Below the pieces are notes generated by a model. That model ran no database searches. It was not told the DNA's origin and saw only the letters and a program-made list of their open reading frames with translations. Below, one piece after another: positions 7,741 to 26,027 of a DNA stretch of 64,000 bases. Origin of the DNA: Pseudomonas pergaminensis. Its GTDB lineage: Bacteria > Pseudomonadota > Gammaproteobacteria > Pseudomonadales > Pseudomonadaceae. Numbering within the stretch: the stretch's first letter is position 1; every line of letters starts with the position of its first letter. Position numbers and translations under genes: made by a program. The stretch covers positions 6,542,501-6,606,500 of the forward strand of contig NZ_CP078013.2 in assembly GCF_024112395.2 (NCBI RefSeq), in the 5' to 3' direction.

Positions 7741-8939
7741 ACCTGACTGTCCTTCTGTTCCTGCACCCACGCCATGTAGCTGTTCATGGGTGGGTTCTTC
7801 TGGAAGTACTTTTTCAGGCCTTCGAACAGGCCGTCGGCAACCGCCTGTTGATGCCGCGCGGTAACCAGGCGCGCACTGTCACGCGCATTGGAGATAAACC
7901 CGGTCTCCACCAGGATCGACGGCACGTCCGGTGACTTGAGCACCGCGAATCCCGCCTGCTCCACGCGCTTCTGATGCAGGCTGGTAATGCCTTCCAGGCT
8001 GCCCAGGATCGAATTGCCCAGTTGCAGGCTGGAGGCAATCGTGGCGTTCATCGACATATCCAGAATCACCCCGGCCAGCATCGGGTCCTTGTCCTTCAGA
8101 TTGAGCAGGCTGGTGGCGCCGAGCAGGTCGGCGCCGTTTTCCCGCTGCGCCATGAAGCGTGCGGTGGCTGAAGTCGCGCCGCCTTCGGACAAGGCATACA
8201 CCGAAGCGCCCGACGCAGTGACCCTCGGCGCCGCATCCGCATGCACGGAGATAAACATGTCGGCATTATGCTTGTGGGCGATCTCCACCCGTTTACGCAG
8301 CGGCACGAAGAAGTCGTCGTTGCGCACCAACTTCACGTCAAAACCCTTCTCGCGTTTCAAGCGTTTGGCCAACAGTTGGGCGATGGACAACACCACGTCT
8401 TTTTCGCGCTGGCCCTTGGAGCCTACAGCGCCGGGGTCCTTGCCGCCGTGGCCGGGATCGACCACCACGATGATGTCGCGCTTGGGGTGCGCCTTATCCA
8501 CCAGGGGCTTGGGTTCTGCCGCAATTTGACGAGGCGCCTGCGTCGCGCTGGTCAGGTCCAGAACCAGGCGATGACCCTGACCCTCCTGGGGCGGCAACAG
8601 AAAGCTGTTGAGCTGCATCGGCGCGGCGAGGTCGAGCACGATGCGCGTGTCGCCTTTGCCGAAATGCCCCGAGCGAATCGACGTGATCCCGCTGTTCGTC
8701 AGCGCCAGTTGAGAGAAATCACCACTGAGCCCGGCGCCGCTCAAGTCAATGATCAAGCGTTCCGGCGCGCTCAGGGTAAAGGTCTTGTACTGCACCGGGC
8801 CGCTGAGGTCGAACACCAGCCGCAGCTTGTCGTCCGAGCGCCACAGGCGGGCGTTGCGTATCTGCGTGGCGTGGGCCGCAAACGGCAAGGTGAAAAGAGG
8901 GCTGGCCAGAAGCAGGTTCAGGAGCTGACGTCTGTGCAT
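7737..8939 (-). CDS. N-acetylmuramoyl-L-alanine amidase (AmiC/PA5538 type)
   Basis: A periplasmic zinc amidase that cuts the bond between MurNAc and the stem peptide. After a signal peptide (MHRRQLLNLLLASP onward, with AHA cleavage near residue 22), an AMIN domain (about 25-125) should target it to the septum. An Amidase_3 domain follows (about 175-385) with zinc ligands visible in VDPGHGGKDPG, the Glu in GQREKD, and FISVHADA; the catalytic Glu is in LVETGFISN. The start at 8939 is preferred over an upstream ATG because it begins directly at the signal peptide. It is divergent from folE2 and shares the Zur box at 9023. Control of a zinc enzyme by Zur also occurs in P. aeruginosa. Confidence 0.92.
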   Translation of the reverse strand: MHRRQLLNLLLASPLFTLPFAAHATQIRNARLWRSDDKLRLVFDLSGPVQYKTFTLSAPERLIIDLSGAGLSGDFSQLALTNSGITSIRSGHFGKGDTRIVLDLAAPMQLNSFLLPPQEGQGHRLVLDLTSATQAPRQIAAEPKPLVDKAHPKRDIIVVVDPGHGGKDPGAVGSKGQREKDVVLSIAQLLAKRLKREKGFDVKLVRNDDFFVPLRKRVEIAHKHNADMFISVHADAAPRVTASGASVYALSEGGATSATARFMAQRENGADLLGATSLLNLKDKDPMLAGVILDMSMNATIASSLQLGNSILGSLEGITSLHQKRVEQAGFAVLKSPDVPSILVETGFISNARDSARLVTARHQQAVADGLFEGLKKYFQKNPPMNSYMAWVQEQKDSQV

Positions 8940-9020
8940 TACAAATACCGCAAATAAAGGAGCGTCCCTGCTCGACATGACTGAAAAAAGGCTGGAGCAG
9001 AAAAATCATCGTCGACTTAA

Positions 9021-9037
9021 TAGTTATAATATAACAT
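9021..9037. promoter_or_regulatory. Zur operator between amidase and folE2
   Basis: GTTATAATATAAC at 9023-9035 is an exact match to the core Zur consensus, with AT-rich flanks. It lies 84 bases before the amidase start and 33 bases before the folE2 start, between divergent genes. It probably commands the rightward operon from folE2 to the dihydroorotase as well as the amidase. Confidence 0.9.
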
Positions 9038-9067
9038 GTCTTTTTATTTCCAACGATGGACCTGCTC

Positions 9068-9964
9068 ATGAATGCGCTGACTCTGCCGGATATCGCCGCG
9101 CAGGCTTCACGCCAAGCCTTGCCGCTCGACTGGGTGGGCATGTGCGGCATCGCCCTGCCGATTCTCATCAACGGGCAGCAACTGACCGCCACCGCCGATG
9201 CCGGTGTGAGCCTGGACGACGGCGCCGCCCGTGGCATTCATATGTCACGCCTATACCTGGCGCTGGAGATGCTGGACCAGCAGCCTCTTACGCCTGCACT
9301 TCTGCGTAATGTACTGCAGCGTTTTCTCGACAGTCATGAAGGTTTAGCTAATAACGCCTACCTGCGGATTCACACCGATTTACTGCTCAAACGCCCGGCA
9401 CTGGTCAGCCCGCTGGCTGGTTGGAAGGGTTACCCGGTGAGCATCGAAGCGCGCCTGGAAAACCAGATGTTCCACGTGGAACTAAAAATTGACGTTACTT
9501 ATTCCTCGACTTGCCCTTGCTCCGCTGCCCTCGCCAGGCAATTGATTCAGCAGCAATTTCTCGAGGACTTCGCCAATACACCGTTGCAGCATGAAGACGT
9601 ATTGACCTGGCTTGGCAGCGCCAATGGCATTGTTGCTACGCCCCACAGTCAGCGCAGCAGCGCGCAACTGCTGATCACATTGGACGGCGACCAACCCAGC
9701 CTGCCCATCACCGACCTGATCAATGACGTCGAAGCCGCCCTCGGCACCGCCGTACAAACAGCCGTGAAACGTGCGGACGAACAAGCCTTCGCCCTGGCCA
9801 ACGGGCAGAACCTGATGTTCTGCGAAGACGCCGCCCGCCGCCTGAACCTCGCCTTGAAATGCTCGGATGCCGTCAAAGCCTTCCACCTGAAAGTGATCCA
9901 CGCCGAAAGCCTGCACGCGCACGATGCCGTGGCTGAAAGCCGCTGGACGAGAAACCCTGCATGA
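9068..9964 (+). CDS. folE2: GTP cyclohydrolase FolE2 (type IB)
   Basis: FolE2 makes 7,8-dihydroneopterin triphosphate from GTP, the first step of folate synthesis. It can work without zinc, so it replaces zinc-dependent FolE1 in zinc starvation. The 298-residue product has DWVGMCGIALP near the start and the conserved YSSTCPCSAAL segment whose Cys is a metal ligand in this family. MNALTLPDIA is chosen as the start; an in-frame ATG 12 bases earlier is possible. The gene overlaps the next by 4 bases (ATGA). A parS-like palindrome lies inside it at 9468-9483. Confidence 0.95.
   Translation: MNALTLPDIAAQASRQALPLDWVGMCGIALPILINGQQLTATADAGVSLDDGAARGIHMSRLYLALEMLDQQPLTPALLRNVLQRFLDSHEGLANNAYLRIHTDLLLKRPALVSPLAGWKGYPVSIEARLENQMFHVELKIDVTYSSTCPCSAALARQLIQQQFLEDFANTPLQHEDVLTWLGSANGIVATPHSQRSSAQLLITLDGDQPSLPITDLINDVEAALGTAVQTAVKRADEQAFALANGQNLMFCEDAARRLNLALKCSDAVKAFHLKVIHAESLHAHDAVAESRWTRNPA
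9468..9483. other. parS-like ParB-binding site inside folE2
   Basis: TGTTCCACGTGGAACT contains a perfect 14-base palindrome (9469-9482) identical to the core of the Pseudomonas parS consensus. ParB encoded at 53519-54391 would bind here and, by family knowledge, nucleate a spreading ParB complex for chromosome segregation. The site encodes part of a Phe-His-Val-Glu stretch of FolE2, so a coincidental match from coding is possible. I saw no second copy in the window. Confidence 0.72.
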
Positions 9965-18111: not shown

Positions 18112-18900
18112 CTATGGGGCTCGGCGCTCGAGCAAACCGTCCTGGATCCACTGTTTCAGCCAGGTGACGGCTTGCAGTGGTGCACCCTCTGCATAAGTGA
18201 CTGCGAGTTCGGCGCACAGTTCTGAAAAACTCCAGCCGGTAGTCACCATGCCCGCCAGGGCGCAGATTTCTGCAGGCTCCAGGCTCCGGTAGTGGCACAC
18301 ATTCTGGTGCCGCCACACCAGGCAGATCTGCGCCGGGTCCAGCGACTGGCTGGGCGGGAAGTGCGACTTCGCCTTGCTGGCCTGCCAGAGTGCCACCGTA
18401 TTGAAGCGGCAGAGTATCTGCTGCACGGAGGGCGCCAGCGTCACCTGCAAACCCGGCCAGTCTTCAGGCGCCAGGTGTGCCATGTCGTGGAGGGTCAGCG
18501 GTTCACCCTGGGGCGCATCAAACGCCAGTGTAAACGCCCACTCCAACCGCGCCAGTTCCGCCAGCGGCGCGCTTTGTTCCGCCACCAGGTGTTCAAGAAT
18601 GAACGCCGGGAAACGCTTGCCCAGCCACCGCAGGCTGTAATGAGCCGATGGGTAACGGCGCACATAGGCGTCGGTCAGCGAGGCGAATTCATCATCACCC
18701 AGCCAATAGAGGACAGCACTGAAATCATGCCGCAAGACTTCCCGCAGCCGTGCGAGGTAGGCGTTGTGGTAAATCGCCAGGCCCGTGTCCACGTCCAGCG
18801 TCGGCCCGCCCAGCAGGGTGGCGGCGAAACCACTGTCGGCCACTGAGGTTTCGGCTAAAAGGTGCTGTTCAAAGGCCAGTTGCCAATCGATCAGGCGCAT
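18112..18900 (-). CDS. bufC: DUF2063 protein, partner of the MNIO enzyme (BufC/HvfC-like)
   Basis: A 262-residue protein of the DUF2063 family. The N-terminal domain shows the family pattern YHNAYLARLREVLRHDF (about 44-60), followed by YPSAHYSLRWLG. DUF2063/HvfC proteins act with DUF692 enzymes as recognition partners that bring the precursor peptide to the active site. The start codon lies inside the end of the DUF692 gene (10-base overlap), so the two are translated together. Gene order precursor-MNIO-partner matches bufferin and hvf operons. The symbol is by analogy. Confidence 0.88.
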   Translation of the reverse strand: MRLIDWQLAFEQHLLAETSVADSGFAATLLGGPTLDVDTGLAIYHNAYLARLREVLRHDFSAVLYWLGDDEFASLTDAYVRRYPSAHYSLRWLGKRFPAFILEHLVAEQSAPLAELARLEWAFTLAFDAPQGEPLTLHDMAHLAPEDWPGLQVTLAPSVQQILCRFNTVALWQASKAKSHFPPSQSLDPAQICLVWRHQNVCHYRSLEPAEICALAGMVTTGWSFSELCAELAVTYAEGAPLQAVTWLKQWIQDGLLERRAP

Positions 18901-19736
18901 AACGATCTCCTGGCCAAGGCGATGGCCCCCAGTTCGCGAGCCTTGCCCAGCTCTGTGAGCAACGCTTCAAAGGGGGGGAAATGGTCGTCCCGCTCCAGTA
19001 GCGTCGACACCGGGCCCAGGTGCTCCAGTGTCTGTTGATAGAGCGCCCACACCGGGTCACACACCGGATGGTCATGGGTGTCGACCACGTAGTCGCCATA
19101 GTCCATGTGCCCCGCCAGGTGCAGTTGGCGGATGCTCTCAGGGGGCAGGTTGCGGATAAACGTCCAGGCGTCAAAGCCATGATTGCGCGAGCTGACATAC
19201 ACATTGTTGACGTCGAGCAACAATTGGCAGCCCGACAGGTGCGCCAGGGCGTTGAGGAATTCCCACTCGGTGAATTCGTCCGCCTTCGAGCGCACATAAC
19301 TGGAGACGTTTTCCAGCACCAGTGGACGCTGCAATACGTCCTGCACTTGGCGCACGCGGGCCGCCACGTGGTAAAGGCTTTCTTCGGTGTAAGGCAGCGG
19401 CAGCAGGTCGTGCAACTGGTGGGCGCTGCCGCGGCTCCAGCACAGGTGATCGGACACCCACGCCGGCTGGATACGCTCGGCGAGCTGTTTGATTTGCTTC
19501 AGGTAGTCGGTATCGAGGGCATGGGGCCCGCCGATGGACAGGGACACGCCGTGCATCACCAGGGGATAACGCTCGGCTATCGCCTCCAGGTAGTACAAGG
19601 CTTTGCCGCCCTGGACCAGATAACTCTCGGAGATCACTTCGAACCAATCCACAGGCGGCGATTGTTCAAGGATCTGTTCGTAGTATTCGTTGCGTAAACC
19701 CAGGCCGTAACCCAGGAAGGGAAGAGACGTGGCCAT
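18891..19736 (-). CDS. bufB: DUF692/MNIO family oxidative enzyme (BufB/HvfB-like)
   Basis: A TIM-barrel multinuclear non-heme iron oxidase of 281 residues. In this family two or three irons act with oxygen to convert Cys residues of a peptide into oxazolone/thioamide or thiooxazole groups. Expected iron ligands are visible: His in HGVSLSIGG, His in SDHLCW, Glu in LENVSSY, Asn/Asp in LDVNNVYVS, His in NHGFDAW, His in HLAGHMD, and Glu/Asp in LERDDHFPPF. The second of two adjacent ATGs (19736) has the better AGGAG spacing of 6. It lies 64 bases after the precursor gene. The substrate is inferred from context. Confidence 0.92.
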   Translation of the reverse strand: MATSLPFLGYGLGLRNEYYEQILEQSPPVDWFEVISESYLVQGGKALYYLEAIAERYPLVMHGVSLSIGGPHALDTDYLKQIKQLAERIQPAWVSDHLCWSRGSAHQLHDLLPLPYTEESLYHVAARVRQVQDVLQRPLVLENVSSYVRSKADEFTEWEFLNALAHLSGCQLLLDVNNVYVSSRNHGFDAWTFIRNLPPESIRQLHLAGHMDYGDYVVDTHDHPVCDPVWALYQQTLEHLGPVSTLLERDDHFPPFEALLTELGKARELGAIALARRSLCA

Positions 19737-19800
19737 CATGGACTCCTGGAAAAGTGTCCGCAGCGGCGTGAAAGCCGCTGCGGTTGCACTCGGCTTGCGA

Positions 19801-20052
19801 TTACTCGCCGACTTTGCCGCCGGCAGCGTCGCAGGCAGCCTTGGTCATGGCCTTGAAGCCGTGGCCCTTGCAGACAGCCTGGCCTTTGCAGGCGTTTTCA
19901 GCGGTCTTGCAGTCGTTCATGCCTTTGCAGGAGGTCACGCCGTAGCAATGAACGTTAGCGTCGGCGGCCTGCGCCTGGGTCGCAACACCGGCGAACATAG
20001 TGGCAGCAGCGATAGCCAGGGCAGCACCGGAAACGGCTTTTTTGATGTTCAT
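19801..20052 (-). CDS. bufA: Cys-rich bufferin-type RiPP metallophore precursor
   Basis: An 83-residue exported peptide. Residues 1-29 form a Sec signal peptide (MNIKKAVSG onward, ending AQA). The mature 54 residues contain six Cys at 36, 42, 48, 55, 61 and 74 in the pattern [13 protein letters not shown], then [13 protein letters not shown], with repeated CKG units. This is the layout of DUF2282/BUF-type precursors that DUF692 enzymes convert into copper-binding bufferins. GAGGA lies about 9 bases upstream of the chosen ATG. It heads the cassette with the MNIO and DUF2063 genes. A plain metallothionein is less likely because of the signal peptide and context. The symbol is by analogy. Confidence 0.9.
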
Positions 20053-20087: not shown

Positions 20088-20146
20088 CTGAACGGATTGT
20101 TCAGCCTCGACACACCACTAGAGTGAGGTCCCCCACAGGCGTTACA
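20088..20146 (-). promoter_or_regulatory. Candidate promoter and inverted repeat upstream of the bufferin precursor
   Basis: Read on the minus strand, TGTAAC at 20146-20141 resembles an ECF-sigma -35 element; 16 bases later comes ACTCTA as a possible -10. Downstream, CTGAAC and GTTCAG form an inverted repeat (20088-20093 and 20099-20104) with a 5-base spacer, 36 bases before the start codon. ECF control is known for Caulobacter bufferins, but no cognate sigma factor gene lies nearby. Assignment is tentative. Confidence 0.3.
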
Positions 20147-20169: not shown

Positions 20170-22056
20170 TTACTCCTCAAGCTTCGACAGGGGCTCCTGA
20201 AAGCGCAGCAAACGCCCGGCGTTCCCCAGTACCAGCAAGGTGCTGAGGTTATGCAACACCGCCGCAATCATGGCGCCGGCGGCACCCAACCAGCCAAACG
20301 CGGCAAACACGACAATGGCCAGGGTCCAACCCAGGCCGATGATCACGTTGACCTGCAACGTCTGCCGGCACTGGCGGCTCAAACGCACACAGGTGCCCAG
20401 GCGCCGCAGGTCGCTGCCGATCAGCACCACATCCGCCGACGCCAATGCGATATCCGCCCCACCCGCGCCCATGGCCACGCCGACCACACCGGCCTTGAGC
20501 GCCAGCGAATCGTTGATGCCATCCCCCACCACCATTGGCCGGAAGCCGCTGCCGATCTCGCCCAGCACGCGGTTGAGCTTGTCTTCCGGCAGGGCCTGGG
20601 CCTGGACATCGCTGATGCCCACGTCCAGTGCCAGGCTGTCAGCCACACTCTGGCGGTCGCCGGTGAGCAGCAGTTGGCGACCGAGGCCAAGGTCCCGCAG
20701 CTCTTGCAGGGCCTGGCGGGCTTCCGGCTTGACGCTATCGGCCAGCAACAGCCAGGCTAGAAACTGCCCGTTCAGCGCCAACCCGGCGATGGGCCCATCG
20801 TGATTGGGAACAGCCGTGGTGAGGATGCCCAGGTGTTCGAACAACTCCGGCCGGCCCAAGGCCGCTTCGCCCCCATCGGTCTGCGCCACCACACCAAGGC
20901 CCTGGCGCTCGCGAATATCCGTCAACGCCAGCCGCTGTCCCTGGGTCGCCAACCCCGCCAGCGCCCGGCTGACCGGGTGGCTGCTGGCCGAGCCCAAGCT
21001 GGCGGCCAGGTTCAGCAACACCTGCCGGTCCGGCTCGGTGGTTTCGATAGAGTGCAGGCGCAACGTACCGAAGGTCAGGGTGCCCGTCTTGTCGACCACC
21101 AGGGAGGTCAGGTCCGCCAGCTCTTCGAGGAACGCCGAGCTGCGAATCAGTATTCCATGCCGCGCCGCCACGGCAATCCCGGCAATGGCGGTGGCCGGCG
21201 CCGACAGCACCAAGGCGCATGGACACGCGGCCACCAACACCGCGAGCATCGCCTGGGCGTCATTGGTCACAAACCAGGTGACCGCCGCCAGCAGCAACAC
21301 CAGCACCATATAGCTGCCGGCATAACGCTCCAGCAGCCGTGTGATCGGCGGCTTGGAACGCTCGGCGTTCTGCATCAGCGCAATGACCTTGCCCAAGGTA
21401 GATTCGTTACCGGTGCGGGTCACTTGCAGGCGCAGCAGGCCGTCGAGGTTGATCGCCCCACCAAACACCTGCACGCCCACGCTGGCTTCCAACGGCACTG
21501 ACTCACCGGTAATCGGCGCCGTGTCCAGGCTCGCCTGGCCCGACAGCACCACACCATCAGCCGGTACCCGATCACCCGCACGCACCTCGACGATGTCGCC
21601 GGTGTTCAGCGTGCCGTTGTCCACCTCATGGATGCTGCCGTCAGCCTGCACCAACCGCGCATGACTGCGCGTGAGTTTACCCAGGGCATGAATCGCCTCC
21701 TGGGAGCCGATCACGCTGCGCTCTTCCAGCACATGCCCAAAGATCATGATGATCGGCAACAGCGCGGCGGTCAGCAGATCACCCGTGGCCCAGGCGCCGA
21801 GCATGGCCAAGGCGATCAGTTGGTCGGTGATGCCATGCAGGCTGGGAAATCGCAGGCTGTACCAGGCCGAACGCATCACCGGCACCGCCACCAACAGCGA
21901 CGCGACGCCCAGCAGCAACTGGCTCACGCCGGTCTGGTCTGGCGCCAGCCAGCGCCATACCAGGCCTAACACCAGCAAGCCCAAGGCGAGCATGGCCAGG
22001 GTCAATTGCCGGGCAGCGCTGCGCTGCTCGGCGGACGTCAGCATGGGTGCGCTCAT
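20170..22056 (-). CDS. hmtA: HmtA-like heavy-metal P1B-type ATPase
   Basis: A 628-residue metal-transporting P-type ATPase of the inner membrane. Seen in order: membrane helices without an N-terminal HMA metal-binding domain, an actuator domain with ITGESVP (182-188), the CPC ion-binding motif (278-280), the phosphorylated Asp322 in DKTGTLT, the SSHP motif of the nucleotide domain, and GDGINDS in the hinge. Most CPC ATPases export zinc, cadmium or copper, but P. aeruginosa HmtA imports copper and zinc and is zinc-starvation induced. Its place at the end of a Zur-box operon favours uptake or redistribution here. The start overlaps the upstream stop by 4 bases. Confidence 0.88.
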   Translation of the reverse strand: MSAPMLTSAEQRSAARQLTLAMLALGLLVLGLVWRWLAPDQTGVSQLLLGVASLLVAVPVMRSAWYSLRFPSLHGITDQLIALAMLGAWATGDLLTAALLPIIMIFGHVLEERSVIGSQEAIHALGKLTRSHARLVQADGSIHEVDNGTLNTGDIVEVRAGDRVPADGVVLSGQASLDTAPITGESVPLEASVGVQVFGGAINLDGLLRLQVTRTGNESTLGKVIALMQNAERSKPPITRLLERYAGSYMVLVLLLAAVTWFVTNDAQAMLAVLVAACPCALVLSAPATAIAGIAVAARHGILIRSSAFLEELADLTSLVVDKTGTLTFGTLRLHSIETTEPDRQVLLNLAASLGSASSHPVSRALAGLATQGQRLALTDIRERQGLGVVAQTDGGEAALGRPELFEHLGILTTAVPNHDGPIAGLALNGQFLAWLLLADSVKPEARQALQELRDLGLGRQLLLTGDRQSVADSLALDVGISDVQAQALPEDKLNRVLGEIGSGFRPMVVGDGINDSLALKAGVVGVAMGAGGADIALASADVVLIGSDLRRLGTCVRLSRQCRQTLQVNVIIGLGWTLAIVVFAAFGWLGAAGAMIAAVLHNLSTLLVLGNAGRLLRFQEPLSKLEE

Positions 22057-23087
22057 TGTTCGGCTCCCTGGATGATCAAGCGGGCGTCGTCTTTAGGATC
22101 GACCGTGGTCACCGAGCCGGCCTGGCCGAGAATCTTTGGCAGGCGCTCGCGGTAGAGGCGCAACATCAGGCCCGGGTCTTTCACTTGGGCCAGGCTGGCG
22201 ACCGTGGCCGTCTGCGCCTGGGCGTTGGCCAGGCGTTCGCTGGCCTGTGCGTGGGCGACTTGCACCAGGCGATCGGCCTGCTGGGTCGCGGTCTGGGTGA
22301 GTTTTTCCGCAGCGGTGCGGGCGTTGGCGACGGCTTTATCGGCCTGCTGACTGGCTGTCAGCACCGCATTGAACGCGTTTACCGCCGGGCCTGGCAGGCT
22401 CGATTGCACATCCACGCGGGTGACTTGGATACCCAATCCCAACCCTGTGGATGTCAGCTCCACCAGGCGTTTGTTGATGCCTTGCACCAAGTCGCCACGC
22501 AGCCGCTCGCGACGTTCGGCAGCGCCGTTATCGGACCCGATCAATTCAGGTCGTGCCACCAGGATCGTGTCCAGATCCCGTGCCGCCGTGAGCGCCACGG
22601 CACTGCGGGTGACCAGGCGATCCAGCGCCGGCAGCACATGCTCGCCCTGCAACACAAAGGCATAGGGTTCGATGACTTTGTAGAACACCCGCACATCCAA
22701 CTGCACCACACCGGCATCGCCGGTCAGCAGATAACCGGAGCCGGCCAGCGCATCACTCAACGGCGTGGCGAAACTGGCCACGCGGTCGGCCTGGATCGCC
22801 GCGTCGGAACGCAGCAGGTTCTCCACCCGCCGCTCGATCACACGGTCAGCCGCCGGCAATAGCACCACCTGCTCAAAAGGCTGCGGCCAGGCCAGCAAGA
22901 GCCCGGCATTCTGGATACGGTCGAGGGCGCCGAAGTGCAAAACCACCGCGCGGTACTGCGGGTCGATCTGGCGCACATTGGAAAATGCCCAGGCCAACGC
23001 CGCCAACACGGTCACCGCGTACAACGCCAGGAACGTCAGGCGCCCGGCCTGGATCCACGGACTGTCCGGGCCGTCACGCTCGGTCAT
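22053..23087 (-). CDS. SPFH-domain membrane protein (HflC-like), third of three
   Basis: A 344-residue protein with one N-terminal membrane helix (about 15-38) and a SPFH/band-7 domain opening with NVRQIDPQYRAVVLHFGAL. A long Ala/Gln-rich helical stretch (about 245-310) should form a coiled coil for oligomerisation. Relatives HflK/HflC build cage-like assemblies around FtsH. It overlaps both neighbours by 4 bases (ATGA), so it is co-translated with the second SPFH gene and the metal ATPase. A role in metal homeostasis is inferred only from the operon. Confidence 0.85.
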   Translation of the reverse strand: MTERDGPDSPWIQAGRLTFLALYAVTVLAALAWAFSNVRQIDPQYRAVVLHFGALDRIQNAGLLLAWPQPFEQVVLLPAADRVIERRVENLLRSDAAIQADRVASFATPLSDALAGSGYLLTGDAGVVQLDVRVFYKVIEPYAFVLQGEHVLPALDRLVTRSAVALTAARDLDTILVARPELIGSDNGAAERRERLRGDLVQGINKRLVELTSTGLGLGIQVTRVDVQSSLPGPAVNAFNAVLTASQQADKAVANARTAAEKLTQTATQQADRLVQVAHAQASERLANAQAQTATVASLAQVKDPGLMLRLYRERLPKILGQAGSVTTVDPKDDARLIIQGAEQ

Positions 23088-24067
23088 GGCTGGACATCCT
23101 TCGGCCCGTCGACCAAGGCGCGGAATGGCGCAGCGTCGGTGCGCAGGATGATCTTGGTGCCTGGCGTGACCACGGTGCCCAAGGTATCCAGGGAGCGCAG
23201 CAGGTTGTACAGCTGCGGATTGCCGGCGTAGGCGCGGCCATAGATCTGCGCGGCCTCGACCCGCGACTGCGCTTCGATGTCGGCGGCTTTCACCGTGGCA
23301 TCGGCCTGCACAATGCGCGCATCACGCTCGGCGGCGGAGCGGATCTGCGCCGCTTCGCGCTTGCCCACGGCGGTGCGCTCGGTGGCGATGGTTTCGCGCT
23401 CGGCGCGCATACGGTCGACGGTGGCGGTGAGGGTCACTGACGGCAAGGTCAGCCGTTCGATACCGACTTGGGCCACGCGCACGCCGTAGGTGGTGAGCAA
23501 TTGTTGATCAATCTGCTGGCGCAACTGCGCTTCGAAGTCAGCGATGCGCACCTGGCTGGCATCGGTGTTGATCAGGCTCGACAGGTCGAAGCTGGCCGCG
23601 GTGGTTTCCAACGCCGAACCCACGAAGGTGCGGATCTGCCGCGCCGCTTCATCCGGCTGGTTCTGCACCGCGCGCATGAAGCGCTGCACGTTGTCTGCGT
23701 CGCCTTGCACCTGCCACGCCACGTAGGCCTGCACGATGATGCGCAGGCCATCGCGGGTGCCCACATCCTGCAAACCGCTGGAGGTGGTGCGCAGGCGCAG
23801 ATCTACCGGGATCGCCGCTTCGAACGGCGCCGGCCAACGCCAGCCCAGGCCGGGTTCCAGCAGCACCCGCGAAGGGTTGCCGAAACGAGTAATCACCGTG
23901 GCCTCGCCGGAGCGCACTTGCACCAGGCTGGCGGCGGCGACCGCAAACAATACCAGCAACAGCGCCCAGGCCATACGGCGCCAGGGGAACGGGCCAGCGG
24001 CGTGCTCGTCACCATGATGGTGGTGATGGTGATGGCCATGGTGATGATCGTGAGAATGAGCGCTCAA
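23084..24067 (-). CDS. SPFH-domain membrane protein (HflC-like) with His-rich N-terminus
   Basis: A 327-residue SPFH protein. Its cytoplasm-side N-terminus holds 13 His in the first 22 residues, including a run of seven (12-18). A membrane helix follows (about 31-50), then the SPFH domain (VRSGEATVITRFGNPSR onward) and a helical tail rich in Ala, Glu and Arg (about 215-270). The His cluster is a likely metal-binding tract and distinguishes it from housekeeping HflC. It lies 12 bases after the HflK-like gene. Confidence 0.87.
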   Translation of the reverse strand: MSAHSHDHHHGHHHHHHHGDEHAAGPFPWRRMAWALLLVLFAVAAASLVQVRSGEATVITRFGNPSRVLLEPGLGWRWPAPFEAAIPVDLRLRTTSSGLQDVGTRDGLRIIVQAYVAWQVQGDADNVQRFMRAVQNQPDEAARQIRTFVGSALETTAASFDLSSLINTDASQVRIADFEAQLRQQIDQQLLTTYGVRVAQVGIERLTLPSVTLTATVDRMRAERETIATERTAVGKREAAQIRSAAERDARIVQADATVKAADIEAQSRVEAAQIYGRAYAGNPQLYNLLRSLDTLGTVVTPGTKIILRTDAAPFRALVDGPKDVQP

Positions 24068-24079
24068 CAGACAGACTCC

Positions 24080-25984
24080 TTATTGAACGGCTTTACGCGG
24101 CACCGAAGGATCGGCCGGCAAGGTAAAAGAACGCAGATCGATCGTCGGCGCGCCATCGGCGCCCAGGCGGTGATCCAGGATAAGCAACTTGGCATGGGCC
24201 AGGCCCTGGCTGAGTTGGCCAAGGTATTGCTCCAGCACGAAGGCCTGGCCGGCCGTGGCGTAGGCCTTTTGTTCGGCGGCGAAACGCAGGTCGGCGGCCT
24301 GGGCGCCGGCGTTCACTTCCCGCGCTATGGCCTGGGCCTGATCGCGCGCGGTGCTGGCTTGCAGCAACGCCTGGTTGGTTTGCTCACTGGCCGCACCGCG
24401 CTCGCGGGAGATCAGGGCCTGGGCACCAATCTGCGCAGCTTGCACGCCGTGATAAGCGTTGGCGGCACCGGCCGGTGGGTGGATCGCCTCGACCACGGTG
24501 GCAAGGATTTCCACGCCACTGTCGAGTGTTTGCAGGTCCGCCTGCACGGCGCGCCCGATCTCGTCGGCCAGGGAGGTGCGTTGTTCGCCGAGCAATTCAT
24601 CCAGGGTACGCGAGGCAAAGTCGTGCACCAGGATGCGACTGGCGGTGCTGCGGATGAGAGTCGGTACATCGGCGCTGTTGTAGGTGGCGGCCAGCGCGGC
24701 CTGATCGGTAAGGCCGATGCGGTAGACAAACCGCACGTCCATGTTAACGATCTGGAAGCTCTGCTTGTCGCCGCTGCTGCTGGCGATCACTTGGGATTTG
24801 TCATTCACATGGCTGGCGTCCCACAGCCGATTGGCAATCGACGGTGGCGGGCCTTCCGCAGCGGCCAGTTCCGGGGCAGCAGCTTCGCTGACACTGGTGG
24901 CCAGCTCATGCACCACGCCGTTTTCGACGCCGATGACACGGCCCAACGGCCACGGTAACCCCACATGCAAACCGGGGCCGAACACCTCAACGGGTTTACC
25001 AAAGCGCTCATAAATCCCACGGCCTTGCAGGGGCACTTCGTGCACACCGGTAAGCGCCCAGCCTACCGCAAGCACCACCAGCAACACCGGCAGGAACGCC
25101 CTGCGCATGTAGGTAAAGGCCCAGATCTGGCGCAGGTCGATGCCGAAACGGTTGTGCAACTCATGCTGCAACGCGAGCAAGGGTTGGGGCGGCCATCGAA
25201 GCAGCCCGGCGATAAAACTGTGCGCCATCAGCCGAGGTTCGAGCCGTGGCTGGCGTGGGCTGAACAACGACAGTACAGCTCTTAATAGAAACTCCAGCGA
25301 GACCAATGCCGGCAGCAACCCGATCAGCACCGCCAGGCGCAACGGCCACACCGACTGCGCACCGGCAAATAGCAGGCAAACCGCACTGACCACCAGGCAG
25401 ATAATCGCCACCCGACTCAACTGCGCCAGTTGTGAGGCTTCCGGCCATTGCGCAACGGTTTCCTGAGCCAAGCGACGTTCGAACACCAGCAGGCCAAACG
25501 CCAAGGCCAATGCCAGCGCAGCACCGATGCTTGCCGATTGACCGACGGGGGCAGCGGGTAATGTCAGGTTCCAGAATTCGACAATGCTGACCAACGCCAG
25601 CAGCGACCAGCCGCCCAGCCATAAAACCGGCGCACCGATCTGCTTGCCAAAGCGCTCGACCAGGCGCGCGTAGCGGCCCGCGTCTTCAACCGGCAGGTCA
25701 ACCGCGGGGGCTTCCAGTGCCTGGGCGCGCCAATCCGCCACCCACCAGGCTGACTGCAAAGCGGCGACCAGCAGCCATAACGCCGACGCGCAGTTGATCA
25801 GCACCACAGGCCAGATCGACAGCGGCGTAAACAACGCGACAAATAGCGCCAACACCCAGCCGGCCACCGCCAGCACCGTCAGGCTGATACCGGCCTGGCG
25901 CAATCGACGGGCATGGAACAGCCCCTGTTGAAAACGCGGTAGGCCTTCCACCGAAGCGCCGTCAGCTTCCAGATCCACTTGCAT
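24080..25984 (-). CDS. Large HflK-like SPFH membrane protein, first gene of Zur operon
   Basis: A 634-residue protein with a fused architecture: about five N-terminal membrane segments in the first 260 residues, a further helix near 305-325 (FLPVLLVVLAVGWALTG), then an SPFH domain (GRGIYERFGKPVEVFGPGLH) and a helical tail. Ordinary HflK is about 400 residues with one helix, so this is an extended form. MQVDLEADG at 25984 is chosen because longer in-frame versions would place the Zur box inside the gene. It is the first gene of the SPFH-SPFH-SPFH-HmtA operon. Confidence 0.85.
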   Translation of the reverse strand: MQVDLEADGASVEGLPRFQQGLFHARRLRQAGISLTVLAVAGWVLALFVALFTPLSIWPVVLINCASALWLLVAALQSAWWVADWRAQALEAPAVDLPVEDAGRYARLVERFGKQIGAPVLWLGGWSLLALVSIVEFWNLTLPAAPVGQSASIGAALALALAFGLLVFERRLAQETVAQWPEASQLAQLSRVAIICLVVSAVCLLFAGAQSVWPLRLAVLIGLLPALVSLEFLLRAVLSLFSPRQPRLEPRLMAHSFIAGLLRWPPQPLLALQHELHNRFGIDLRQIWAFTYMRRAFLPVLLVVLAVGWALTGVHEVPLQGRGIYERFGKPVEVFGPGLHVGLPWPLGRVIGVENGVVHELATSVSEAAAPELAAAEGPPPSIANRLWDASHVNDKSQVIASSSGDKQSFQIVNMDVRFVYRIGLTDQAALAATYNSADVPTLIRSTASRILVHDFASRTLDELLGEQRTSLADEIGRAVQADLQTLDSGVEILATVVEAIHPPAGAANAYHGVQAAQIGAQALISRERGAASEQTNQALLQASTARDQAQAIAREVNAGAQAADLRFAAEQKAYATAGQAFVLEQYLGQLSQGLAHAKLLILDHRLGADGAPTIDLRSFTLPADPSVPRKAVQ

Positions 25985-26010
25985 CCACTCAACGCCCAGT
26001 TGTACACAAT

Positions 26011-26027
26011 TCGTTACGATATAACAC
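26011..26027. promoter_or_regulatory. Zur operator upstream of the SPFH/HmtA operon
   Basis: GTTACGATATAAC at 26013-26025 matches the Zur core GTTATAnTATAAC at 11 of 12 fixed positions (the fifth base is C instead of T). It lies 29 bases before the chosen start of the HflK-like gene and is in an intergenic segment once that start is used. A related zinc-controlled operon containing hmtA is known in P. aeruginosa, which supports the assignment. Confidence 0.75.

Follow-up and report, generated by a model that had tools for sequence, protein, structure and literature searches.

A Buf2 bufferin cassette of Pseudomonas pergaminensis has a promoter-like site in common with an unlinked Buf1 cassette and a candidate ECF sigma factor as its likely activator

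The closest described relatives of the cassette reported here are the Buf2 bufferins (Buf_6/12Cys, BufA2), for example that of Caulobacter vibrioides (PMC12452194). We analyzed a 64,000-nucleotide stretch of the 6.6-Mb genome of the soil-type bacterium Pseudomonas pergaminensis, which we call the window and to which all coordinates refer unless a genome position in Mb is given. We found in it three genes of the same precursor, MNIO (formerly DUF692), and DUF2063 families, and the precursor likewise has six Cys residues and, as judged by eye, a putative signal peptide. The cassette differs from other Buf2 bufferins in having no DoxX gene (DoxX is a core but not constant gene of Buf2 cassettes), in having a promoter-like site that also precedes a Buf1 cassette elsewhere in the genome, and in adjoining an HmtA-like operon. 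We think it probable that the genes encode a BufBC-modified, Sec-exported, periplasmic copper-binding peptide, that they are transcribed as a unit of their own from this site, and that an extracytoplasmic function (ECF) sigma factor is the likely activator. The cassette consists of the following genes.

19801..20052, minus strand: bufA2, Buf2 bufferin precursor, 83 amino acids (NF050166, 95.4 bits)
18891..19739, minus strand: bufB, MNIO (formerly DUF692) bufferin maturase, 282 amino acids (PF05114, NF050167)
18112..18900, minus strand: bufC, DUF2063 partner whose C-terminal domain is NGO1945-related, 262 amino acids (PF09836, profile)

Other described systems share parts of this arrangement. 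The captophorins (fontiphorin, oxazolin/HvfA, and gonophorin) also pair an MNIO with a DUF2063/RiPP recognition element (RRE) partner, and the thiooxazole class has been proposed for all of them, but their precursors have Lys-Cys EGKCG repeats whereas the window precursor has Cys-Lys motifs (PMC12668002). Methanobactins (MbnABC) likewise have an MNIO enzyme and copper-binding heterocycles (PMC12452194). In contrast, the window partner is a DUF2063 protein. The window enzyme scored 54.2 bits with the MbnB model (cut-off, 325 bits); a methanobactin enzyme and a chryseobasin enzyme were both rejected, with scores far below the NCBIfam cut-offs. The gig (gold-induced) operon of Cupriavidus metallidurans has a precursor, an MNIO, a DUF2063 protein, and DoxX, with an ECF/anti-sigma pair nearby. 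It differs in its four-Cys precursor and in its anti-sigma factor, RsqA, which is predicted to be membrane bound; control by RpoQ is not proven there (PMC10304878). The family names of gigP and gigA are those of PMC12452194. ECF16 regulons (Sinorhizobium RpoE7 and Brucella BcrS) resemble the Pseudomonas site in the −35 element TGTAAC, in the 17-base spacing, and in their targets, a DUF692 cluster or a Met-rich peptide (PMC6180224, PMC8315932). Their −10 element is CGAA, whereas the window site has TCTAG, and no NrsF anti-sigma factor was found in the P. pergaminensis genome. The combination that marks an ECF16-controlled cluster, TGTAAC-N17-CGAA with NrsF, is thus absent from the window cassette.

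An earlier reading of the letters (below, the sequence-only reading) had described an exported six-Cys peptide, a DUF692 enzyme, and a DUF2063 partner encoded in a single direction. We found the three open reading frames (ORFs) at those places on the minus strand, with the 10-base overlap of bufB and bufC described there. We give the bufB ORF from 19739; the start given earlier, 19736, is a second ATG. BufB matched the Pfam family MbnB_TglH_ChrH (PF05114) with 374 bits and the NCBIfam BufB model (NF050167; cut-off, 310) with 375.4 bits, and BufC matched DUF2063 (PF09836) with 69.3 bits, in agreement with both names; chance would not give matches of this strength. The NCBIfam HvfC model matched BufC weakly (33.5 bits against a cut-off of 142). 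The precursor had been called BUF/DUF2282 type. The bufferin part of this holds, as the NCBIfam BufA2 model (NF050166; cut-off, 60) matched above its cut-off; DUF2282 identity was ruled out because the precursor had no Pfam match. No DoxX gene was found by Pfam in the cassette or among the neighbors scanned, as that reading had also said.

Related loci were taken from the best 80 of 101 named Pseudomonas genomes that encode a BufB relative, fetched with the window enzyme. The order BufA2-BufB-BufC was kept in all 80, a cyclopropane fatty acid synthase gene lay downstream of the cassette in 78, and window BufB was up to 96% identical to the enzymes of these loci, which places the genome close to the P. 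fluorescens group. By these comparisons, the three genes are confirmed as a Buf2 bufferin cassette, a further member of a known family.

The BufA2 precursor has a Sec-type signal peptide of about residues 1 to 29, judged by eye from its N terminus, and Cys at positions 36, 42, 48, 55, 61, and 74. Each of the middle four is followed by Lys (SCKG, DCKT, ACKG, and VCKG). We compared 81 precursors, those of the 80 named loci and the window, and found exactly six Cys in every one, with a spacing of 5-5-6-5-12 in 70 and 5-5-6-5-13 in 11. Cys 2 to 5 were followed by Lys in 81/81, the first Cys stood in HCYG in 80 and QCYG in 1, and the last Cys had no Lys after it in at least 63. By a sorting rule of our own, the precursors also fall into two core alleles (42 and 39 of the 81). 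On the best BufB tree, the allele switches 11 times, and well-supported branches force at least 5 of these switches; alleles are shuffled while the Cys spacing hardly shifts.

BufB shares H63, H98, E143, D176, H187, H207, D220, E249, and D251 with the solved DUF692 chain 3bww, and the iron ligands are presumably among them. Residues 249 to 252 of window BufB read ERDD. FonB has Phe after the catalytic Asp, and in Cys-Lys enzymes Asp replaces this Phe250 (PMC12668002). Window BufB has Asp, not Phe, at that place, and ERDD fits the published trait of Cys-Lys enzymes. The loci supplied 113 BufB ORFs, some of which share a locus; 87 of these have ERDD, 18 ERDN, 2 ERDG, 1 ERDF, and 5 no such motif. 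When 44 BufC proteins were combined into a profile, it matched NGO1945 (3dee; E value, 6.4e-10) over two stretches, one N-terminal and one C-terminal. DUF2063 was found in 44/44 of these proteins and NGO1945_C in 5/44 (at E 0.01); window BufC alone scored 14.4 bits with NGO1945_C, below the cut-off of 27. BufC thus has the two parts of a PME-type 1 partner, DUF2063 and an RRE-type domain, the C-terminal part being recognized through the 44-protein profile only.

Buf1 peptides are modified at their central Cys, and a disulfide joins the first Cys to the last (PMC12452194). Based on this statement together with the Cys-Lys pattern and the ERDD signature, we predict four modified Cys in window BufA2. 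According to this model, BufB and BufC would convert Cys 42, 48, 55, and 61 in the cytoplasm into thiol-bearing heterocycles (5-thiooxazoles in relatives), and Cys 36 and Cys 74 would probably pair as a disulfide. Sec would then export the peptide, with loss of the signal peptide, and the product would bind copper in the periplasm. The chemistry, the metal, and the location are read across from relatives.

A promoter-like site lies upstream of the precursor gene.

20116..20146, minus strand: TGTAACG-N17-TCTAGTG, a predicted ECF-type promoter whose end lies 63 bp ahead of the bufA2 ATG

When we aligned the sequence upstream of bufA2 from the window and 28 loci, the block TGTAACG...TCTAGTG was kept while the sequence farther upstream varied, and the block was present also at loci without the adjoining ATPase operon (described below). 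The exact site, with its 17-base gap, was found in 73/80 named loci, 399 to 414 bp upstream of the BufB ATG; the 1.63 Mb of these loci contain no other copy. The other seven comprise three one-letter variants and four loci that keep TGTAACG with the second block or the spacing altered. The P. pergaminensis genome has two exact sites, one before window bufA2 and one before the Buf1 precursor of an unlinked cassette. Allowing one mismatch added no further site there; the backward pattern gave 0 exact and 5 one-mismatch matches, and about 0.025 exact sites per genome are expected from base composition (60% G+C assumed).

We extended the search to 57 relatives and to 199 Pseudomonas genomes. Among the 57, 15/17 exact matches and 5/19 one-mismatch matches lay within 700 bp before BufB, and 20/44 BufB loci above the cut-off had the site within one mismatch. 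Among the 199, the exact site occurred in 62 genomes at 90 places (backward control, 13). BufB lay within 1.5 kb downstream at 87/90 places, and the remaining 3 preceded a Met-rich peptide. At those 87, the precursor was BufA2-like in 46 and Buf1-like in 37, and in 4 it had no BLAST match. The sole exact match outside the genus (G055, of another family) is inside a coding frame. One-mismatch matches GGTAACGG...GGCTCTAGTG in G003, G007, G015, G024, and G025 had no BufB downstream and were set aside; one such match that we inspected (L136) lies among overlapping ORFs.

Seven of the 80 named loci do not have the ATPase operon and keep the site (5 exact and 2 one-letter variants), which argues that the cassette is independent of that operon. 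Most likely the cassette is its own transcription unit, started at TGTAACG-N17-TCTAGTG. In the open-access literature that we searched, we found no description of this site or of a regulator of Pseudomonas bufferins, and the PSPTO_1043 promoter differs. A 2025 survey reports sigma-factor genes in Buf1 but not Buf2 clusters (PMC12452194).

Three genes of the P. pergaminensis genome matched MNIO above the Pfam cut-off: bufB of the window and those of two further loci.

L114, MNIO at 2.391 Mb: DUF2282 precursor, DoxX, alpha/beta hydrolase-like protein, BufA2 precursor, BufB, BufC
L115, MNIO at 1.519 Mb: DUF2282 precursor, BufB, BufC, DoxX

The DUF2282 precursors lie at 1.519 and 2.389 Mb, and it is the L115 precursor that has the second exact site. 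DoxX scored 67.6 bits at L114 and 56.1 bits at L115 (cut-off, 23.6). The BufB of the DUF2282-linked L115 has ERDN and that of L114 has ERDD. At L114 (6404-9806 of that locus; 2.389 Mb), one BufB/BufC pair serves both a Buf1 and a Buf2 precursor, with DoxX and the hydrolase-like gene between them.

A candidate regulator came from Pseudomonas sp. ACN8 (L111), in which a Buf1 and a Buf2 cassette flank an ECF gene (8630-9265) and a gene for a 77-residue zf-HC2 protein. The site is exact at this Buf2 cassette and reads TGTAACG-N17-TCTAGAG at Buf1. P. pergaminensis encodes an orthologue.

4,905,587-4,906,201 of the P. pergaminensis genome: ECF sigma factor orthologue, 79.5% identical to the L111 ECF factor, with Sigma70 regions 2 and 4 above cut-off

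This gene is followed by one for an 81-residue zf-HC2 protein (41.3 bits; cut-off, 22.2) with an HX3CX2C motif, a candidate anti-sigma factor that is a small zinc-finger protein with no evident membrane part. Upstream is a gene for 3-oxoacyl-acyl carrier protein (ACP) synthase III. The order synthase, ECF, anti-sigma was kept in 21/21 Pseudomonas copies (at least 69% identity). In P. aeruginosa, PA3285 is an ECF factor (PMC8999054) and PA3286 is a synthase of the 3-oxoacyl-ACP synthase III type (PMC4549310), and we therefore take the P. pergaminensis factor as the probable orthologue of PA3285, by synteny and gene descriptions.

We then related the ECF orthologue to the site in 36 genus members. 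Where the site, exact or with one mismatch, stood at BufB, 13/13 members had the orthologue, against 8/23 of the others (Fisher P, 9e-5, ignoring kinship). Restricted to the 21 members with a BufB above the cut-off, the counts were 13/13 and 4/8 (P, 0.012, again ignoring kinship). From this co-occurrence and the co-location in L111, the ECF/anti-sigma pair at 4.906 Mb is likely the regulator of the cassette. Transcription would start from TGTAACG-N17-TCTAGTG, common to the window and the unlinked Buf1 cassette; the activator would be the ECF factor at 4.906 Mb, held by the HX3CX2C anti-sigma factor, which would release it on zinc loss or oxidation. The survey of sigma factors covered 30/46 sigma-region matches of the genome. 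Another ECF/anti-sigma locus, L181, was rejected as the regulator, the site being absent there.

Several observations weigh against this combined picture of peptide and regulator. The published survey does not identify the modification of Buf2 (PMC12452194), and the count of four heterocycles is a prediction. In the 57 genomes, 24/44 BufB loci above the cut-off, including L114 of P. pergaminensis itself, are without the site within one mismatch; three of these (L207, L208, and L210) have looser variants. When the three variants were added, the ECF association was weaker (15/16 versus 2/5; P, 0.028, ignoring kinship), because G035 has a variant site but a search of its 530 contigs turned up no ECF orthologue. 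The site was found in 1/25 stretches upstream of the ECF gene (two pairs being duplicates), and autoregulation of the candidate gene is thus not supported. In G012 (L229), a distance of 2.8 kb separates the ECF pair from an MNIO cluster that has an EGKCG precursor and no site. Five other Pseudomonas loci (L212 to L216) carry TGTAACC-N17-CGAA before Buf1 and before a divergent neighboring ECF gene. Because this is the ECF16 promoter form, bufferin control seems, from these promoters, to have been swapped between members of Pseudomonas. At L229, we also noted a transposase-like gene (8500-9480, named by reading) between the ECF pair and the EGKCG-type cluster.

The lack of support for autoregulation and the 24 BufB loci without the site could be explained if the site and the ECF factor were not a pair and another activator bound the conserved site. 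We consider this unlikely, though it keeps an appreciable share of our judgement, as it leaves unexplained the ECF-promoter form of the site, its 17-base spacing, the co-location in L111, and the 13/13 co-occurrence.

The three places at which the site does not precede BufB bear on what the cassette may respond to. In G007, G110, and G117, the site precedes an exported-looking peptide of 82 to 86 residues that has, after residue 28, 13 to 14 Met, 15 to 16 Lys, 11 to 13 Asp, and no Cys. Its gene lies between livF and a LysR gene, the slot of Buf1 in P. pergaminensis. The signal region of the G007 peptide aligned with that of the P. pergaminensis Buf1 precursor with a score of 55, which 0/2000 shuffles reached (maximum, 29); three other exported proteins scored 3 to 18. 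No Pfam or NCBIfam model matched the G007 peptide at the limits used. Brucella has an ECF16 factor that controls a Met-rich MXKDX peptide and is responsive to hypochlorite (PMC8315932). Because of the Met-rich peptide and this parallel, the site and the slot may serve oxidant defense as well as copper.

An alternative reading is that the cassette belongs to a hypochlorite or thiol-oxidant response, in which the modified thiols would be an oxidant sink and copper binding would be secondary. Besides the Met-rich peptide at 3/90 places, the −35 element and spacing equal those of the ECF16 consensus (T/C)GTAAC-N17-CGAA, HOCl induces the Brucella member of that group (PMC8315932), and a DUF692 gene set of P. 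aeruginosa for a ribosomally synthesized and posttranslationally modified peptide (RiPP) is expressed with NaOCl and on N-acetylglucosamine (PMC9023270). However, characterized bufferins protect against copper (PMC12452194), the gig genes of Cupriavidus are copper induced (PMC10304878), the −10 element is unlike that of ECF16, and NrsF was not found in the P. pergaminensis genome. We regard an oxidant sink as the primary role as doubtful.

The genes upstream of the cassette raise the question of metal uptake.

20170..22056, minus strand: metal P1B-type ATPase in an HmtA-like setting (TIGR01525 and TIGR01512 above cut-off)
22053..23087, minus strand: SPFH/HflK-like protein 1 (PF01145)
23084..24067, minus strand: SPFH/HflC-like protein 2 (PF01145)
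24080..25984, minus strand: SPFH protein 3 (PF01145), with its start at 25984 set from the upstream alignment
26010..26027, minus strand: Zur-like box GTGTTATATCGTAACGAA, ahead of the SPFH-ATPase operon

In gene layout, these genes match an hmtA locus, in which a metal P-type ATPase gene comes after three SPFH/Hfl-like genes. The P. aeruginosa hmtA locus (PA2439-PA2435) has the same layout and is up at low zinc (PMC4542158, PMC11761036). The HflC-like protein (23084-24067) begins with a long His run, possibly metal binding. A degenerate, strongly kept box, GTTATATCGTAAC, stood before the first operon gene in 62/70 loci, by a pattern devised after the box had been spotted in the aligned sequences. 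A simple Zur site, GTTATANNNTATAAC, was tried and rejected: it matched the window 5 times against 2.86 expected, with no match at the ATPase operon.

On this basis, the peptide could serve metal acquisition, capturing periplasmic copper or zinc and passing it to the HmtA-like pump under zinc limitation. The ATPase gene lies directly upstream of bufA2 in 73/80 named loci, the Zur-like box is widely kept, HmtA is reported to be a Zn/Cu importer, and a znuA mutant showed higher expression of hmtA-locus genes and of PA3282-PA3284 (4.1- to 5.0-fold) (PMC4542158). Reports on the control of the locus differ: one study describes Zur binding to the PA2439 promoter in vitro but no repression of hmtA mRNA by zinc (PMC8531726), and hmtA is excepted from the Zur targets in another (PMC10393844). 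A promoter-like site precedes the cassette itself, and the ATPase is absent at 7/80 loci. PA3282-PA3284 are putative MNIO-cluster genes. Since 6/22 close relatives of the ATPase in the 57 genomes adjoin BufB, the ATPase-cassette neighborhood is, as judged from these genomes, a feature limited to one species group. We infer that the ATPase/SPFH genes are a transcription unit separate from the cassette, and we consider a role in acquisition quite improbable. At L084, L085, L087, and L088, where the ATPase/SPFH operon is absent, the cassette and its site directly follow sequence that in the window lies beyond the operon (likeness by eye).

That the precursor is exported unmodified, or that the cassette is decaying, is hardly credible with six Cys at nearly fixed spacing in 81/81 precursors and the genes together in 80/80 loci.

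The Buf2 cassette of the window, read as an ECF-controlled unit for a copper-binding peptide, is itself one addition to a family of thousands. A wider proposal, which in our judgement falls just short of an even call, is that the ECF factors orthologous to PA3285 in many Pseudomonas species have a regulon of hardly anything but exported peptides that trap metals or oxidants, the factor being held by its anti-sigma factor and zinc loss or oxidation being the switch. Its members would be both bufferin families and, in strains that have no Buf1 cassette at that place, the Met-rich peptide, which has a related signal peptide and occupies the same slot of the chromosome. If this is true, zinc loss from the anti-sigma factor or its oxidation could explain the rise of PA3282-PA3284 in the znuA mutant without a Zur site. 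The bufferin site (87/90 places), the candidate sigma/anti-sigma pair, and the Met-rich stand-in make the inducing signal, whether copper, zinc loss, or hypochlorite, directly testable.

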